Positions 1,310 to 35,330 of a DNA stretch of 35,330 bases are shown piece by piece (the first letter of the stretch is position 1; every line of letters starts with the position of its first letter). The DNA is from a virus. The notes under the pieces are model-generated. The model did no database searches. It was not told the origin of the DNA and worked only from the letters and a program-made list of their open reading frames with translations. The position numbers and the translations under genes are program-made. The stretch covers positions 1 to 35,330 of IMG/VR virus record IMGVR_UViG_3300037189_026082; one strand, 5' to 3'.

Positions 1310-1973
1310 TTAATTTATAGAGTTTCCCAGAGATTCCAAAATCCCATTGTATTTCAACAGCCTTTTGAACTTCATTGGTTTCACGGAAGTTCTTCACATT
1401 GGCAAAACCTTTGTACCCAGTTCCGTCATCTCGGATAAATTCAAAATACAACTGAGCGGATTTTCCGATTCCCTCATCTGCGGCAAGTAGCAGGTTGTAG
1501 CCTGGGTTAGCCGAGGTAGTTAGCCCTTTACAAGATAGCTGCTTGGTTCTCCCTAAAATTAGTTCCTCGGTTGTCCCCGCCTTGGTGTTAAAGGTAGCAA
1601 AGGATTCGATTTGATCGCTCCCTTGACGGTTGAAGGATTGAACAGCATAAATCGGTACGAGAACATAGGTTGTTGCAGTTGCCGCACTCGCAATTTCCGT
1701 TGGAACAGAAGTGACGGAAATGGAAGTTGCCGTAGCCGCAGCGTCCGCATTCACTCGTACCTTTACCGCTCCAAATTTCAGGATCTGTCCCTCATAGACG
1801 GGCTCTGATAGGGCTGTAACTGCAATGTTAACCGGAGTTGCTGATACCGCCCTGGTTGCCGAAGTGGTGATGGTCATGCTGTCTGGGACGCTCAATCCAT
1901 CCCCATAAGCAGCTAAGAAACAATCTGCATTATTGATGATTAAATAATCTGCGGCAGTTAAGGTTCTAGACAT
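1296..1973 (-). CDS. Major tail tube protein
   Basis: A 225-aa beta-rich protein. The C-terminal third (about residues 185-222, with YFEFIRDDGTGYKGFANVKN and then VEIQWDFGISGKLYKL) has the look of siphovirus tail-tube subunits. Residues 41-105 form an Ala/Thr/Val-rich module that also occurs in the decoration protein at 4638-5249. A GGAGG ribosome site lies 5 bases before ATG 1973. Order supports the call: after the tail-terminator-like gene and before the chaperone. No tail-sheath gene is adjacent, which argues for a non-contractile tail. Confidence 0.7.
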   Translation of the reverse strand: MSRTLTAADYLIINNADCFLAAYGDGLSVPDSMTITTSATRAVSATPVNIAVTALSEPVYEGQILKFGAVKVRVNADAAATATSISVTSVPTEIASAATATTYVLVPIYAVQSFNRQGSDQIESFATFNTKAGTTEELILGRTKQLSCKGLTTSANPGYNLLLAADEGIGKSAQLYFEFIRDDGTGYKGFANVKNFRETNEVQKAVEIQWDFGISGKLYKLSDTI

Positions 1974-28477: not shown

Positions 28478-28897
28478 CTAAAATTTCAAAGGTGGTTCAT
28501 TTTTTAGCCGTTGCTTTAATCGCACGATTGCGGTAACAGAAATACAGCATTTTTCGGCAATCTGAATGTTGGAATATCCCTGGCTTAGGTAATAGCGAAT
28601 TTTTGCAATGATAGGAGCGGTCAACGAGCCGCGTAGACGCTCGATTTGAAAGACTTTTCCACAACCAGAAGCACAAAGATATTTTTGAATGCCAAGCCTG
28701 GTTTTTCCCTGTTTACGAGAGGGTCCAGAGCAGTAAATACAAGGAGGATTCGGAGCCGAAAGATCCGCCATTATGATCGATACTTTCGCCTTGGGTTCGT
28801 TTCGGGTGATCCACCGATACCAATAACGTGCCTTCGCCAGATCGTCTACCGTAAATCTCACCTCCCCGTCTTGGAGAATCTGATACTTACTAGGCAT
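28478..28897 (-). CDS. Zinc-ribbon plus HTH protein
   Basis: Start ATG 28897 (MPSKYQILQDGEVRFTVDDL), overlapping the MuB stop by 8 bases. 139 residues. A treble-clef or ribbon with CIYC near residue 53 and CASGC near residue 76, then an HTH (GYSNIQIAEKCCISVTAIVR). This architecture resembles InsA-type DNA-binding proteins and small phage regulators. It probably binds DNA; target unknown. Confidence 0.6.
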   Translation of the reverse strand: MPSKYQILQDGEVRFTVDDLAKARYWYRWITRNEPKAKVSIIMADLSAPNPPCIYCSGPSRKQGKTRLGIQKYLCASGCGKVFQIERLRGSLTAPIIAKIRYYLSQGYSNIQIAEKCCISVTAIVRLKQRLKNEPPLKF

Positions 28898-29624
28898 AGC
28901 GGCGCATCCCCACAACTTTACTAGGAGGTTCTGAGCCTTCAGGAAGAAGGCGCCCATTGCCCAAGTCCTTAAGAGAAATGGAAGGCAATCCATGATCAAG
29001 CGCCCAATTCTCCAAGTGAGAGATCATGCGCCAAACCAGCCGAGCCTTACCTTTCGACTCCTTAAAGATTCTTTCAATCAGATCGCTCTCAATTTGCACA
29101 TCAGCAATTGATTCGATCAAAAGCTGGCAATCCGACAAGGACATCGGAGCGATTTCCAAAAAGTATTGAATCCGATCCACTAACAAGGGAATCTGAGAAA
29201 ATTTCTCGTAGATGCCCGTCATGCCGCAAAAAACGACAGGGATTCGTGCCTGATCGTGAAGCACACGGATCAAGTCCAACAATTCACGTCTGGCAAATAG
29301 GAAATCAGCCTCATCTATGAGCAAAGGCTTCCTTACAGAGGCAAGCCCCTCAGCTAAAAGATCCAGCCCATTAGCAATAGAGCGAGGAGATTCGATAGAA
29401 TAAAGAGAGCAAAGCCGAGAAATCAAAAAGAATTTACTCATTGAAGGGTAGCAGGAAAAGTAAAGTGCCCCATACTGTTGAGCCAAAAGGGTAAGTGCCG
29501 TCGTTTTCCCAACCCCTGACGGGCCAATGATCAGCCCCATTTGCTCCTTAGTGGAGTTCAGCAAAAATTTAAAGCACTGTAAGGAATCTGTAATCCCCTT
29601 GATTGGTACTGTTTCGTTTTTCAT
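28890..29624 (-). CDS. MuB-like AAA+ transposition ATPase
   Basis: Start ATG 29624 (MKNETVPIKGITDSLQCFKF); longer frames cross a strong hairpin. 244 residues. Walker A GPSGVGKTT (34-42), Walker B LLIDEAD (101-107), and a sensor-like VFCGMTG (131-137). The C-terminal part is helical. MuB-type ATPases bind target DNA and stimulate the transposase; family members also give target immunity. It lacks an obvious N-terminal HTH like that of Mu B. Gene order A then B is conserved. Confidence 0.85.
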   Translation of the reverse strand: MKNETVPIKGITDSLQCFKFLLNSTKEQMGLIIGPSGVGKTTALTLLAQQYGALYFSCYPSMSKFFLISRLCSLYSIESPRSIANGLDLLAEGLASVRKPLLIDEADFLFARRELLDLIRVLHDQARIPVVFCGMTGIYEKFSQIPLLVDRIQYFLEIAPMSLSDCQLLIESIADVQIESDLIERIFKESKGKARLVWRMISHLENWALDHGLPSISLKDLGNGRLLPEGSEPPSKVVGMRRYA

Positions 29625-29652
29625 GTTTAAGTAAAGGTAGATTATGTTTGCG

Positions 29653-29676
29653 CCCCCTAACTGGGGGTTTTCTTTT
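29653..29676 (+). terminator. Plus-strand terminator between transposase A and B genes
   Basis: CCCCC-TAACT-GGGGG followed by TTTTCTTTT on the plus strand. On the minus strand (the A-B transcript) there is no T-run, so there it is just a stable hairpin. It may block antisense transcription or tune B expression. Confidence 0.5.
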
Positions 29677-29730
29677 AGTCTTTCCCGCCGCGACATGACA
29701 GGAAAGATCAAGATTAGTGTTAAAGCACTT

Positions 29731-31956
29731 TTAGCCAGTCTCCCTGCGAACCAGCCGAGGCTTATGCAGGAAAGATTCAGCCAAAAACATGCCAGCCTCA
29801 AGCAGGATATCTCGGCGGAGCAAAGGAACCATATCTTCAGGCCAATTGCGCTCTGAATATTCCAAAAGCTTAAATTCTTGATCCGATAATTCCCCTCCAA
29901 TTAGATAGGTGTGTAAAATTTTGGCCTTGCGAACTCGTAGAGCCAGTTCTTGTTCAGCCTTGCCTTTCAGTTCCCGATTTTTCGTTTCCTCAGCCTGAGC
30001 TAAGAACTTTTCCCGATTTTCTAAATTTTCCCGCTTTTTCTGTTGGGAGGCCAGATCGATCACATTATCTGGATTCCCCATTTCCGAATTTTTAATGATT
30101 TGTGGCAAGCTTTCAATCGCCACCGCAGTTTCTAAAACATCCACTTCCACAGTGAGCGCCTTGGCTGGATCTGCCTTGATCTCTTTCTGCTTCTGCCTTG
30201 CCTTTCTCAAGGTATCTTTGGACATACGCTCAATCTCCTTAAAGTTTTGAGCTTGCGCCATAGCGATAGATTGAAGCTGTTCAGGAGGTAGGGCATCTCG
30301 CCAGTAAGCCTTACCCAGAGATTCCGATAAAGAAGAATCCTTATAAAGGTTGATTTGATAAGGATCTTCCGAGTCATAGCGGACATGAACCTTTGATCCG
30401 ACCTCAATACCCACAGCCACATAGAGCCGAGAGTTCAATTCAATCCCCTGCCGACGAACGAGTCGATCCGCACTTTTGAGAGAAATCAAATCGAGGTACT
30501 CAAATTTCTCAATGCGCCTAGGCATCCACCCCTGAGCCATCGAATCAGAAAGCTTGCGGATAGGAGAGCAATCAATACCACTATGTTCCCGATTGTGGTA
30601 GTCCGCACACCACTGGTCTGACCATTCCTGGAATTGATCCGAGGTCATCTCCAAATCCACTTCCTTCTCGTTCTCCCAGCGATCGCGTATTTTTGTTCGC
30701 TGCTCAATCGAGCATCCGATATAGCCTGGTAGCACCTCTACGAGATCATGCTGATAAGTCCCGAAGAAACGCTCGATAAAGGGCTTTTCCTTTGGAGAAT
30801 AAGGGTTACAGGCATGAATATCGACGTTAAGGAAATCCAAGAACTCGGTAACTTGCTTGCTCTTAAAGGGTTTCCCGTTATCCCTTCTAAGCTTTTCGGG
30901 TATTCCCCAATCCTGAATCGCGGCTTTGAGCAAAGCAAGGACTGAATCAGTGCGATCGCGTTCGGCTATGAGCACCTTAGCCCGACGGGTATACACATCA
31001 ATCAAGGCAAGAGCGGTGTACCGCTTCTTCTTCCAGATTCCATCTTGCTCGAATTTCAGCATGATGTCAGTCGGAGAAGCGTCGACTTCCCACACCTGAT
31101 TCGGTCGGCTTACATCCTGATCCCTCTTGCCAAAAGCAGGAGAGGTATCGAGCCCCTTGTAAATCCCGTACTCTTGAGGATTGCTTTGGGCAAAATTTTG
31201 CACCCAATAGCGAATCTGCCGAGCAGTGGGAAGTACGATTAATTCGTGGTAATTCTTGAGCATATAGAGGATCTTCCCTGCGGAAAAAATCCCTTGAGCC
31301 AGACAAATCTTGACAGCCTCGGCTATTTCAGGGAGCATATCTATCAAGGATTTGCCCTTGCGTGTGGACAGCGATCGCCCATCACAAATAGCGAAGATGG
31401 AATTTTTCTCCCTGAGCGCTTGCCTTTTAGCCAAAAGCGTTGATCGGCTTAGACTAGGAATCAAACCATAGGTTTCTGAGGAGATAGAATCAAAAGCCTT
31501 GCCATTATATAGAGTGCAGAAATTGATCTGAGCCTGTATTTTAGGGAGATCACAGCCCAGAACATAGGACTCATAAGCTTTCTGTATCTCTAGATGAGCC
31601 TGAAAACGGGGAACGAACCAATCCCCAAAGCTTGAACTATTTGGAGCGGATTCAGGCAATCCCTCAAACTCAGCTTTCCAATATTTCTCCTGCATTTGCC
31701 GCACCGATAAAGGGGCAGGATTCAGGTATGGATCGTTGGCGATCGCTTGAGCAAGCCGATCTTTTTCAAGGGTTCTCAGATGAGCCTGAGTCCCAGGTGG
31801 CAAAGAATCAAAATGATACTCTAAAGTTTCGCCGCCAATCCCCTTAGCAGATCGGGATACCCAATCTTCTCTCTTGCCCTTTTGGATCAATCCTTGGCGA
31901 GTAGAAGGCATTCCAGGCAAATTCAATAATTCCGAAGATTTGTACCAAAGCTGCAT
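29731..31956 (-). CDS. MuA-like DDE transposase
   Basis: A 741-aa protein. The N-terminus (QLWYKSSELLNLPGMPSTRQ, then QGLIQKGKREDWVSRSAKG) is the Mu-type winged HTH. The integrase core has D292 (VWEVDASP), D359 (RRDNGKPF) and E395 (KEKPFIERFFG). The D-E distance is 36, close to D,D-35-E and shorter than in MuA. A C-terminal SH3-like part and a basic coiled region follow (RKARQKQKEIKADP). It cuts the phage ends and joins them to target DNA in integration and replication. Confidence 0.92.
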   Translation of the reverse strand: MQLWYKSSELLNLPGMPSTRQGLIQKGKREDWVSRSAKGIGGETLEYHFDSLPPGTQAHLRTLEKDRLAQAIANDPYLNPAPLSVRQMQEKYWKAEFEGLPESAPNSSSFGDWFVPRFQAHLEIQKAYESYVLGCDLPKIQAQINFCTLYNGKAFDSISSETYGLIPSLSRSTLLAKRQALREKNSIFAICDGRSLSTRKGKSLIDMLPEIAEAVKICLAQGIFSAGKILYMLKNYHELIVLPTARQIRYWVQNFAQSNPQEYGIYKGLDTSPAFGKRDQDVSRPNQVWEVDASPTDIMLKFEQDGIWKKKRYTALALIDVYTRRAKVLIAERDRTDSVLALLKAAIQDWGIPEKLRRDNGKPFKSKQVTEFLDFLNVDIHACNPYSPKEKPFIERFFGTYQHDLVEVLPGYIGCSIEQRTKIRDRWENEKEVDLEMTSDQFQEWSDQWCADYHNREHSGIDCSPIRKLSDSMAQGWMPRRIEKFEYLDLISLKSADRLVRRQGIELNSRLYVAVGIEVGSKVHVRYDSEDPYQINLYKDSSLSESLGKAYWRDALPPEQLQSIAMAQAQNFKEIERMSKDTLRKARQKQKEIKADPAKALTVEVDVLETAVAIESLPQIIKNSEMGNPDNVIDLASQQKKRENLENREKFLAQAEETKNRELKGKAEQELALRVRKAKILHTYLIGGELSDQEFKLLEYSERNWPEDMVPLLRRDILLEAGMFLAESFLHKPRLVRRETG

Positions 31957-32347: not shown

Positions 32348-32929
32348 ATGTGCTACACAGTACCCCAAAAAGCAGAACCAGTACAGCTTAAAGCAAAAGT
32401 CTGGACAAAAAGAGGACTAATTTTCCTTGGTGTTCTTGTACGCCAATCAAGAGAAGCCCTTAAAATCAGCTTGGATGGAGCCAGCGATTTAATTTTTGAC
32501 AGAACTGGAGAAAGGATCTCCAAAAAGACCATAGGGAATGTTGAAAACAGTTCTGGAATGCCGACCTGGAACACCTTCGCAGTAATTTCAGCCGCAAGAA
32601 TGGTAACGAATCCAGAGAACGGAAAATTTCTCGACGAGCAAGATTTTCTAAATATTGCCAGCGAATTTTACCGCCCAAAAATCATGGAACTAGCAAAAAT
32701 GATCGATTTGGCGATCGCGCTCAACAACTTAGACAAAAGCCAAGTCTATAATAAATCACAGATATTGCGCCTAGGAGAAATGAGCAGAGAACGGTTTGAC
32801 GCAATACTAGAAGGAAGCCAGACGGTCACTGACGATGAAGTCCGTATCATCCGAGAATTGGTAGATCCAGACGAGCAAGCATTTTCAGAAACCGAATGGC
32901 TAGAAGCAGCAGGACTAATAGAACAGTAG
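32348..32929 (+). CDS. Phage repressor-like HTH protein
   Basis: A 193-aa protein divergent from the early operon. Residues about 20-85 form an XRE-like HTH (RGLIFLGVLVRQSREALKIS, ERISKKTIGNVENSSGMPTW). A second helical part (NKSQILRLGEMSRERFDAIL, then TVTDDEVRIIRELVDPDEQA) may dimerise or bind a ligand. No LexA-type Ser/Lys protease pair is seen, so induction may not follow the RecA route. A candidate promoter lies at about 32293 (TTTACA). Confidence 0.65.
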   Translation: MCYTVPQKAEPVQLKAKVWTKRGLIFLGVLVRQSREALKISLDGASDLIFDRTGERISKKTIGNVENSSGMPTWNTFAVISAARMVTNPENGKFLDEQDFLNIASEFYRPKIMELAKMIDLAIALNNLDKSQVYNKSQILRLGEMSRERFDAILEGSQTVTDDEVRIIRELVDPDEQAFSETEWLEAAGLIEQ

Positions 32930-32930
32930 A

Positions 32931-33197
32931 TCAGCCACGGTGAGAAGTACGACCGAAGCGATCCGTACCTACCATGAAAATAATAGTAGAGCCAATCCCC
33001 AAAGTAAAAATAGCGGATAAAAGGTTACTACGGGAAGCCCAAAATTTTCGAGCCAGTTCCATAGAGAGAAAATCTATATAGAGGATCGAGGCGCCATTCT
33101 CAAAAGCTGGCCACATTTTTAGACCAAACAACTCCGGGGATTCCGCAACCCATGCAACCACTTGATCTAAAGACAAAGGTTCTAAAGTTGAACGCAT
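32931..33197 (-). CDS. Small protein with one membrane segment
   Basis: An 88-aa protein convergent with the repressor gene, one base apart. The N-terminus is polar (STLEPLSLDQVVAWVAESPE); residues about 58-76 are hydrophobic (NLLSAIFTLGIGSTIIFMVG), and the end is basic (RFGRTSHRG). Possible lysogeny-expressed membrane protein such as superinfection exclusion, by analogy only. Confidence 0.5.
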   Translation of the reverse strand: MRSTLEPLSLDQVVAWVAESPELFGLKMWPAFENGASILYIDFLSMELARKFWASRSNLLSAIFTLGIGSTIIFMVGTDRFGRTSHRG

Positions 33198-33326
33198 AAC
33201 AGGAAAAAAGACGCAGCTACGGGGAAAACATACTAATCATATAATACAGAAGCTTTATTACATAGGAACTGATCTAGATCACAAGTCCCTTAAATGATTA
33301 GCTCTAGAAACAAGCCTAAAACCTTT

Positions 33327-33385
33327 TAACTGTAAACAGATTTAGTTGCTAACTGTAAACAGATTTAGTTGCTAACTGTAAACAG
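33327..33385 (+). repeat. Tandem 23-bp repeat (2.6 copies)
   Basis: Units start at 33327, 33350 and 33373. The core TAACTGTAAACAG is perfect in all three, and the remaining 10 bases (ATTTAGTTGC) in the first two. The period of 23 bp (about two helical turns) suits protein-binding sites. It lies in the 376-base gene-poor gap 33198-33573. The core recurs inverted at 35145-35157 with one change. Candidates: transposase end sites, an internal enhancer or iterons. Confidence 0.7.
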
Positions 33386-33573
33386 GCTGTATACTCTGAT
33401 TGTACAAGCTATTCGCGCCTAAACATTTTATTTTTACACAAGTTTTGCTTATACTCTCAGATGCACCACAAAGATTATACGAGCCACTCATCAAAAGTCA
33501 GCATCTAACAAACGATTTTGATTTACACTCTTTTCGTCTGCGAGAGCAAAACCTTATTGCAAATGACTATCAA

Positions 33574-33870
33574 CTATTCTGGACTTTTCTCCAACATTTC
33601 AACGCGATCGCTAACCGACTCAAGCCGACCATTGAGGATCTGCTGTTGTAATTCGGCCTCTTTCCGTGGGTACGAATTTTGCTCAATAGAATGCTTGAGG
33701 TCTGATACCCCTACTTCGACACTAACAACCCGCCGATCAAGGTAAACCACGCCAGCAACGAACGTCAGAGCAAGCCCAATAACAGCGATCACAGCCTCAA
33801 CCCTATCCCAAATAGAAAAGACAGACTTAGGCTCAGGCGGAGGAGGTGGAGGAGGAGAAAAGAACCACAT
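33574..33870 (-). CDS. Membrane-anchored coiled-coil protein (lysis region)
   Basis: Start ATG 33870 (GAGG 8 bases upstream). 98 residues: FFSPPPPPPPEPKS, a membrane segment (AVIAVIGLALTFVAGVVYL), then a coiled coil (VEVGVSDLKHSIEQNS, LNGRLESVSDRVEMLEKS). This topology fits small phage lysis proteins such as holin- or spanin-like factors. It lies next to the endolysin gene, although in the opposite direction. Confidence 0.5.
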   Translation of the reverse strand: MWFFSPPPPPPPEPKSVFSIWDRVEAVIAVIGLALTFVAGVVYLDRRVVSVEVGVSDLKHSIEQNSYPRKEAELQQQILNGRLESVSDRVEMLEKSPE

Positions 33871-33995
33871 AATACAAGCCTCAGAACCCCTTAAATCTAG
33901 CCAGAAAGCCATTACACAGTCAGGGGCTAAAATTAGCACATCAAACTAAAAGCCCTGAGAAATCCCCCAAATCCCGAAAACAATAGGAGAGGAAA

Positions 33996-34032
33996 GTAGG
34001 GGTCATAGCCCCGCGCTACAAAGGGGCTTTTT
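33996..34032 (+). promoter_or_regulatory. Switch-like leader: alternative hairpins before endolysin
   Basis: Hairpin 1 is GTAGGGG-tcatag-CCCC-gcgc-TAC (33996-34019). Hairpin 2 is AGCCCC (34007-34012) with GGGGCT (34023-34028) followed by TTTT, an intrinsic terminator. Both use CCCC 34009-34012, so they exclude each other. AAGGGG in the 3' arm of hairpin 2 is the only Shine-Dalgarno-like sequence before ATG 34035. Confidence 0.6.
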
Positions 34033-34034
34033 AT

Positions 34035-34790
34035 ATGATTGACAGAGCATTAAAACTGACGGAACTAAGCAAAGAACAATTAACAGCCCTACAAACTAAC
34101 CTCAAAGGAATAGGACTATACCAATCCGCAATAGACGGCTTATTAGGACCAGGAACTATAAACGCCTGGAAAACCTTCAAACAACAAAATCACTTAGCAG
34201 ACCCCCATCTAATTGGTCCTAGCAGCTACAAACAGCTAGAGAGCCAAAATAACAACCGATTAATTTCACGGGAAGACTTCAATAGAATATTCAAATATAC
34301 CAGCGAACGCGATCGCCAAAAATATTACGAGCCCATAAACCAAACCCTGAAAGAATTTCAGATAAATACTCCTGCCAGGATTGCCGCTTTTCTAGCACAG
34401 TTAGCCCATGAAAGCGGATCACTAAGGTACAGCGAAGAAATCGCTTCTGGAGCCGCCTACGAAGGGCGAAAAGACCTAGGCAATGTCAAAGTCGGAGACG
34501 GAAAACGGTATAAAGGCAGGGGCTTAATACAAGTCACCGGGCGACATAACTACACCAAATACGGCAAAATCCTAGGATTGCCCCTAGCAGAGAATCCAAA
34601 ACTAGCAGAAAACCCAACAAACTCCGCCAGAATAGCAGGAGCATACTGGCAAGCCTGTGGACTGAACAAATTGGCAGATAAAAATACCTTAGAAAGCTTC
34701 AAGCTAATATCCCGGCGCATCAACGGCGGGTACAACGGTCTAAGCGATCGCATAAACTACTGGAACCTCGCCAAATCAATCCTAACTTGA
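34035..34790 (+). CDS. Endolysin: peptidoglycan-binding plus GH19 domain
   Basis: A 251-aa protein. Residues 12-70 are a peptidoglycan-binding domain (LTALQTNLKGIGLYQSAIDG, LLGPGTINAWKTFKQQN). Residues 80-250 are a GH19 domain: IAAFLAQLAHESGSLRYSEE with catalytic E126, then GRGLIQVTGRHNY and GLSDRINYW near the end. GH19 phage enzymes cut the cell wall for release. No signal peptide is present, so a holin is needed. The start codon follows a terminator hairpin directly. Confidence 0.88.
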   Translation: MIDRALKLTELSKEQLTALQTNLKGIGLYQSAIDGLLGPGTINAWKTFKQQNHLADPHLIGPSSYKQLESQNNNRLISREDFNRIFKYTSERDRQKYYEPINQTLKEFQINTPARIAAFLAQLAHESGSLRYSEEIASGAAYEGRKDLGNVKVGDGKRYKGRGLIQVTGRHNYTKYGKILGLPLAENPKLAENPTNSARIAGAYWQACGLNKLADKNTLESFKLISRRINGGYNGLSDRINYWNLAKSILT

Positions 34791-35330
34791 TTCGTAGAAC
34801 CATCCTTATAAACCCATCTTTGGCGTAGAAACCCAAGATCGACCATTTTCTTGCTGTCGAGGAAATGGTCAGCGATACTGCCTTATTATCGCAATGACCT
34901 ATTTACTAAAATAAGCGCCGAAAACTTAGTCACTATTAAAGCGAACGATAACATGAGCATTGGTTTACTCGCATATGCAAGTCAACCATACTGGATTTTT
35001 TAGCGGCTTTAGTCAACTAGGGCGTAACGTATCAAGCAACAATGCTCAGAGACAACCCCAAAGTTACCAGTTCCTTTTTGCAGCCTTAATAAGAATCTCT
35101 CGCAATTGTAAAAAAAATCGGGGAAAAAAGTCATTTGTCATTTTCTGCTTACAGTTACAAAGAGTGTAAACAGCCCTCAAACCCAGATAGACTCGACACT
35201 TCCCGCATCTTCCCACATCACACCTTAGATCCGAGATGATTTGTCATCTTACATGCAGTTCAACAAATTAGACGCCTAGAGTCTATGGGAGTTTTTCCTC
35301 CTGGGATTGAACCCCCAAAAAGTATCATTA
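34791..35330. other. Gene-poor right end with site-like repeats and protein-like fragments
   Basis: No convincing gene in 540 bases. One frame (34828-35001) reads as protein (SAENLVTIKANDNMSIGLLA) and ends in a stop, and another takes over (34960-35169, NHTGFFSGFSQLGRNVSSNN), which may be the remains of one gene. TTTGTCAT occurs at 35134-35141 and again near 35240. The last 50 bases show no further structure. This may be the phage end or flanking DNA. Confidence 0.35.
35136..35173 (+). repeat. Cluster of transposase-site-like sequences
   Basis: TGTCATTTTCTG at 35136 opens like Mu/Tn7/Tn402-type element ends. Directly inside, CTGCTTACAGTTA (35145-35157) is the reverse complement of the 33327 repeat core with one change, and TGTAAACAG (35165-35173) matches the core again in direct orientation. 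Confidence 0.4.

Follow-up and report, generated by a model that had tools for sequence, protein, structure and literature searches.

Is the RNA hairpin that stands directly in front of the endolysin gene of a cyanobacterial prophage a switch or a simple brake on lysis? To our knowledge, the means by which transposable prophages of cyanobacteria keep lysis from coming too early are little understood. The endolysin leader considered here belongs to a virus record from IMG/VR that is 35,330 bases long (the window, that is, the whole stretch of DNA that was analysed), and a preliminary description had read it as an RNA switch built of two hairpins. That a hairpin of the terminator type overlaps the ribosome-binding site in this leader and restrains endolysin expression is the reading to which we give about an even chance, with the hairpin probably being a plain device against lysis that comes too early, and not an RNA switch that senses a ligand.

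The endolysin gene and its carrier

Judged by its sequence, the carrier of the endolysin is a cyanobacterial Mu-like prophage. Besides the MuA- and MuB-like genes (Table 1), major head, minor head, portal and terminase genes are present in the window, and the cyanobacterial HIP1 motif is abundant with 25 copies of GCGATCGC. Three copies of TAACTGTAAACAG with 23-nt spacing at 33327-33385 and an inverted near-copy 1.8 kb away at 35144-35173 are probable MuA end sites.

The endolysin combines a peptidoglycan-binding domain, the PG_binding_1 match of which scored below the family cut-off, with a GH19 domain, and its nearest full-length counterparts are those of the Microcystis phage Ma-LMM01 and relatives with 48-50% identity. 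The ATG at 34035 is supported as the start by the alignment of the N-terminus, M-I-D-R-A, with M-L-R-N-I-D-R-A of the Ma-LMM01 endolysin.

Upstream, the gene at 32348-32929 had no family match, but is, by its position divergent from the MuA operon, probably the repressor gene. The small divergent open reading frame between this gene and the endolysin, likewise without a match in Pfam, PHROG or phages, weakly suggests a spanin-like or holin-like protein. The divergent intergenic region also contains the inverted repeat TCAGGGGCT..AGCCCTGA at 33920-33958, one arm of which is shared with the segment 33948-33956.

Table 1. Features of the window and of the analogous endolysin leaders
Feature	Position	Strand	Remarks
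MuB-like gene	28890-29747	minus	
MuA-like gene	29731-31956	minus	
Putative prophage repressor gene	32348-32929	plus	Reads toward endolysin; divergent from MuA/MuB operon
Small divergent open reading frame	33574-33870	minus	Proline run, one TM-like segment, then coiled-coil-like tail (sequence inspection)
AAAAGCCCU	33948-33956	plus	Long-range partner of 34023-34031 (GGGGCUUUU); encloses hairpin A, closes Shine-Dalgarno sequence and U-run
AGGAGAGG, second Shine-Dalgarno-like stretch	33985-33992	plus	About 42 nt from ATG; anti-Shine-Dalgarno duplex −7.3 kcal/mol
Hairpin A, GGGGU CAUA GCCCC	33999-34012	plus	−7.0 kcal/mol alone
Hairpin T, terminator-type stem AGCCCC/GGGGCT	34007-34028	plus	6 bp, 10-nt loop; −11.2 kcal/mol alone
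AAGGGG, Shine-Dalgarno-like	34021-34026	plus	8 nt before ATG, within T 3′ arm; anti-Shine-Dalgarno duplex −7.2 kcal/mol
U5 run after T stem	34028-34032	plus	Ends 2 nt before ATG
Endolysin gene, PG-binding domain and GH19 (chitinase class I)	34035-34790	plus	PF00182 4.5e-7; phrog_181 endolysin 3.2e-67
Hairpin of the L023 group	L023:4900-4940; L212/L213/L215/L221 ~1460-1503		

Competing hairpins in the endolysin leader

The blocks on which the preliminary description had relied, GGGG at 33999-34002, CCCC at 34009-34012, GGGG at 34023-34026, TTTTT at 34028-34032 and ATG at 34035-34037, are all found in the sequence where it had placed them. Hairpin T, five of the six base pairs of which are G-C, has the G+C-rich stem of an intrinsic terminator with the U-run immediately after it. 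Efficient terminators usually have loops shorter than the 10 nt of T, and a simple terminator scan, the loop limit of which was 8 nt, missed T for this reason. Hairpins A and T compete for CCCC 34009-34012; the proposed pair of hairpins sharing this block is predicted to fold as described, but is an incomplete picture, as six C4/G4 blocks occur within 165 nt of the leader and the segment 33948-33956 is also predicted to pair with 34023-34031 in transcripts starting near 33940.

So many blocks bring chance into consideration, in which case AAGGGG would simply be a Shine-Dalgarno sequence and the T-run simply a spacer in a leader with C/G-rich blocks. The folding energy of the whole leader is indeed not unusual (z −0.3 to −1.2), the cost of opening the ribosome site (−18 to +9, within −60 to +40) is with 6.6 kcal/mol ordinary when compared with the 3.6-16.9 kcal/mol of the other genes of the phage, and whole-window shuffles put the expected number of terminators that have a competing hairpin at about 0.1 per strand and about 0.2 per window. 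On the other hand, any terminator arises in only 0.3% of the dinucleotide shuffles of the 167-nt leader, and one preceded by a competing hairpin in 0.03%, and another phage group, described below, shows the same position at an endolysin ATG; we consider chance unlikely.

Exposure of the ribosome-binding site

Cyanophages use Shine-Dalgarno sequences as their hosts do (PMC6847405). The description of AAGGGG as the sole Shine-Dalgarno-like sequence is correct within range of the ATG, but AGGAGAGG at 33985-33992 pairs with the anti-Shine-Dalgarno sequence as well as AAAGGGGCU does. This second stretch is too distant from the endolysin ATG to act without folding. An upstream start at AGGAGAGG was judged unlikely, as no ATG, GTG or TTG lies at a usable distance; from 33987 onward no stop codon interrupts the frame, which contains ATA at 34005.

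The predicted cost of opening the ribosome site depends on where the transcript begins. It is 8-11 kcal/mol for 5′ ends up to 33948 and 4.8-5.6 kcal/mol (−14 to +3) for 5′ ends at 33966-33996, amounts to 9.8-9.9 kcal/mol for transcripts that begin too late to include the first GGGG and hence hairpin A, and is 3.6-4.3 kcal/mol for 5′ ends at 34014 or later, where the 5′ arm of T is absent. T is predicted to prevail (0.90) in transcripts starting at 33960-33970, while A and T are even for a start at 33920 and both minor for a start at 33900. With the 5′ end at 33940, AAAAGCCCU is predicted to pair with GGGGCUUUU around A, which is formed (0.98), leaving the Shine-Dalgarno sequence buried with an unpaired probability of 0.01-0.14 over GGGG. 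The energy model does not give a clean two-state switch, as the balance of A and T and the burial of the Shine-Dalgarno sequence vary with the 5′ end.

These predictions bear directly on a switch in which A is the antiterminator and anti-sequesterer, and a binder at 33990-34012 toggles A and T. In transcripts starting at 33985-33996, A and T are near-isoenergetic (−12.3 versus −11.2), and opening the site costs about 4.9 kcal/mol with A, compared with 9.9 kcal/mol in its absence. The antiterminator GGGG block is, moreover, present at none of 123 AGCCCC..GGGGCTTTTT..ATG sites in IMG/VR and is therefore not a routine companion of such terminators. The earlier proposal that the alternative hairpin frees the Shine-Dalgarno sequence holds, in the energy model, only for transcripts starting at about 33966-33996 (4.8-5.6 versus 9.8-9.9 kcal/mol), but fails for longer ones, where 33948-33956 covers it again; with the 5′ end at 33940, it is buried in both states.

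A scan of all IMG/VR for the three-block pattern delivered only 116 stretches. In one of them, GGGG-CCCC-GGGGCTTTTT directly precedes the ATG of an unrelated peptidoglycan-binding endolysin (L363:8480-8522, minus strand), which speaks for the switch, but no close kin of L363 was found and the case is isolated. A second in-frame ATG lies upstream inside the L363 hairpin, a possible dual start. A riboswitch class was rejected for the leader of the window since Rfam gave no match at the gathering threshold and no credible one at E ≤ 10, in agreement with the preliminary description, which had recognised no known class. Upon inspection, no competing upstream hairpin was seen in the group of analogous leaders treated below; altogether, we regard the two-state switch as quite unlikely.

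Sequestration of the Shine-Dalgarno sequence and the AUG in long transcripts, as in T4 gene e, is found in the energy-model prediction, and a purely translational delay has to be weighed as well. The U-run would then not be a terminator; long early or lysogenic transcripts would hide the site, while a late promoter located in the hairpin or directly 5′ to it would make a short, open mRNA. The fall of the opening cost with the 5′ end, from 8-11 over 4.8-5.6 to 3.6-4.3 kcal/mol, the same trend in the analogous leaders and the T4 gene e precedent (PMC3014915) are in line with such a delay. However, a scan for sigma-70-like promoter sites found none scoring at least 9/12 on the plus strand at 33870-34035, a result that weighs little either way. 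To this explanation, also, we assign a rather low probability.

Analogous leaders in another phage group

With respect to relatives of the leader itself, blastn against phages and plasmids gave chance-level matches only, and neither these two collections nor IMG/VR yielded a relative. Single-sequence searches of IMG/VR found no relatives of the endolysin, MuA or the major head protein, while the GTDB genomes contain one distant endolysin relative (Roseovarius).

Leaders of homologous endolysins were gathered by profile search. In the majority, no hairpin of this kind is present. A group with homologous GH19 endolysins, named here after L023 (L023/L025, L059 (=L212), L213, L215-L220 and L221-L223), possesses a hairpin with a U-run that reaches the endolysin ATG or nearly so, and with GGTGA or AGGA in its 3′ arm at Shine-Dalgarno distance. 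The endolysins of the main lineages of the group share about 53-60% identity, those of L212 and L213 79%. The stem arms are CACCAG/CTGGTG, CACCG/CGGTG, CCTAG/TTAGG and CCTAGT/ACTAGG, and positions 7-10 of the stem change compensatorily (A-T/C-G, C-G/T-A, C-G/A-T, A-T/G-C), whereby the correspondence was set by hand along the stem and is biased toward structure. With the 5′ arm, the opening cost is 9-17 kcal/mol, without it 2-5 kcal/mol.

The endolysin is the sole gene start with such a layout in the G003 and G005 contigs and one of few in the G006 contig, where the remaining cases appear weak or seem to be wrongly called starts. As ordinary terminators of the same CTAAAA..TTTT type occur elsewhere in the contigs of the group, the element probably serves, on sequence grounds, both as a terminator and as a hairpin over the ribosome site. 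GTATA stands in the hairpin loop region in three of four lineages of the group, a possible embedded late −10 element.

The leader of the window and those of the L023 group are alike in the homologous GH19 endolysin, the hairpin, the Shine-Dalgarno sequence in the 3′ arm and the U-run abutting the ATG. The leaders of the group differ by an A-tract stem and by the lack of a competing upstream hairpin, and are not evidently homologous to that of the window.

Endolysin starts in general

A general enrichment of terminators or start-region hairpins at endolysins was considered and rejected once the L023 group was removed. Terminators near GH19 endolysin starts (4 of 64, versus 22 of 733 other genes) belong partly to one clade and are unconvincing, and a second set yielded one among 61 distinct leaders before GH19 endolysins. 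Among the 733 other genes on the contigs that carry homologous endolysins, only 3 have a terminator within 12 nt of the start, which speaks for the brake treated below. Start-region hairpins were found at 13 of 127 endolysins (10%) versus 35 of 948 other phage genes (3.7%; p 0.002), with about half of the endolysin cases stemming from the single L023 group and some of the automatic starts being mis-picked.

In the Ma-LMM01-type phages (L004:1465-1498, L012-L014 and L325-L329), the endolysin ATG itself sits in the 3′ arm of a hairpin, with arms TTAGCATACT/AGTATGCTAA in LMM01 and a core of 7-8 bp in the MaMV phages. AAGGAG lies about 28 nt upstream of the endolysin ATG in these phages, and several MaMV phages also have an upstream open reading frame of five codons.

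A probable terminator-type brake on premature lysis

The leader would, in the reading we prefer, fuse an intrinsic-terminator-type hairpin to the ribosome-binding site of the endolysin. Plus-strand transcripts from upstream, e.g. from the putative repressor gene in lysogeny, would mostly be stopped at the U-run; they could reach T since T is the only plus-strand terminator-like site between the repressor candidate and the endolysin (32900-34040, relaxed rules). Transcripts that read through would keep AAGGGG paired, either by T or by the longer 33948-33956/34023-34031 helix, and T at the endolysin start would in this way keep repressor-side transcription from causing lysis in the lysogen. Termination at T, the arrival of the repressor transcript and the manner in which lysis is released are inferred.

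The space from the U-run to the ATG is too small for a promoter, and the endolysin mRNA must therefore read through T or start within T. Release of lysis would presumably need a late event, either antitermination by a phage factor or a late transcript whose start, within the hairpin or immediately 5′ to it, leaves out the 5′ strand of T. The brake does not require hairpin A, which may modulate read-through.

Sequence and energy model both contain the pairings, and a second phage group has an analogous element that covaries, in our analysis the best independent support for the brake. T and U5 nearly abutting the ATG, the lack of another terminator-like site on the plus strand, and the T4 gene e and Xp10 P7 precedents also argue for it. 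The brake is weakened by the ordinary opening cost and a hairpin as strong as this at 3.7% of other phage gene starts, by the absence of covariation at the locus, as no relative of the leader was found, by the L023 leaders not being evidently homologous and endolysin starts not being generally enriched without them, by the long loop, and as neither a late promoter nor an antiterminator was identified for the endolysin of the window. The earlier claim that one structure could block both transcription and translation is plausible and has a covarying analogue, while its other half, A as the releasing switch, is weak. That several unrelated phage lineages have converged on a terminator-fused endolysin start, which with the Shine-Dalgarno sequence in the 3′ arm gates transcription and translation and is made switchable here by a competing hairpin, appears quite unlikely to us.

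Comparison with known systems

In the case of the T4 lysozyme gene e, an RNA helix over the ribosome site silences long early transcripts, while late promoters yield mRNA without the 5′ strand of the helix, which is expressed; related phages have similar leaders (PMC3014915). The leader of the window likewise has an RNA helix predicted to hide the endolysin ribosome site, closed in long and open in shorter transcripts. However, the T4 hairpin has late promoters in its 5′ strand and is not described as a terminator (PMC3014915), whereas the leader of the window has a U-run after the stem and no promoter-like site in the scan.

Transcriptional attenuators and riboswitch expression platforms similarly have a competing 5′ hairpin and a terminator sharing one strand, but for the leader of the window neither an Rfam match nor an aptamer, a ligand or a sign of conservation was found. 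Lambda Q is a phage antiterminator that bypasses a late-gene intrinsic terminator. Xp10 P7 lets the polymerase pass intrinsic terminators before late genes, lysis genes included (PMC6624301). Common to these two systems and the window is an intrinsic terminator ahead of late genes including lysis genes; in contrast to them, the terminator of the window overlaps the Shine-Dalgarno sequence, and neither an antiterminator gene nor a loading site was identified.

The timing of endolysin by RNA structure, which the preliminary description had called unusual, is already known, T4 gene e being the textbook case (PMC3014915), and an endolysin start at which the terminator is joined to the ribosome site represents no more than a variant of it. 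If recurrent, such a fusion would constitute a compact dual-level lysis timer, and the T4 gene e principle would extend to phages that are not T4-like.
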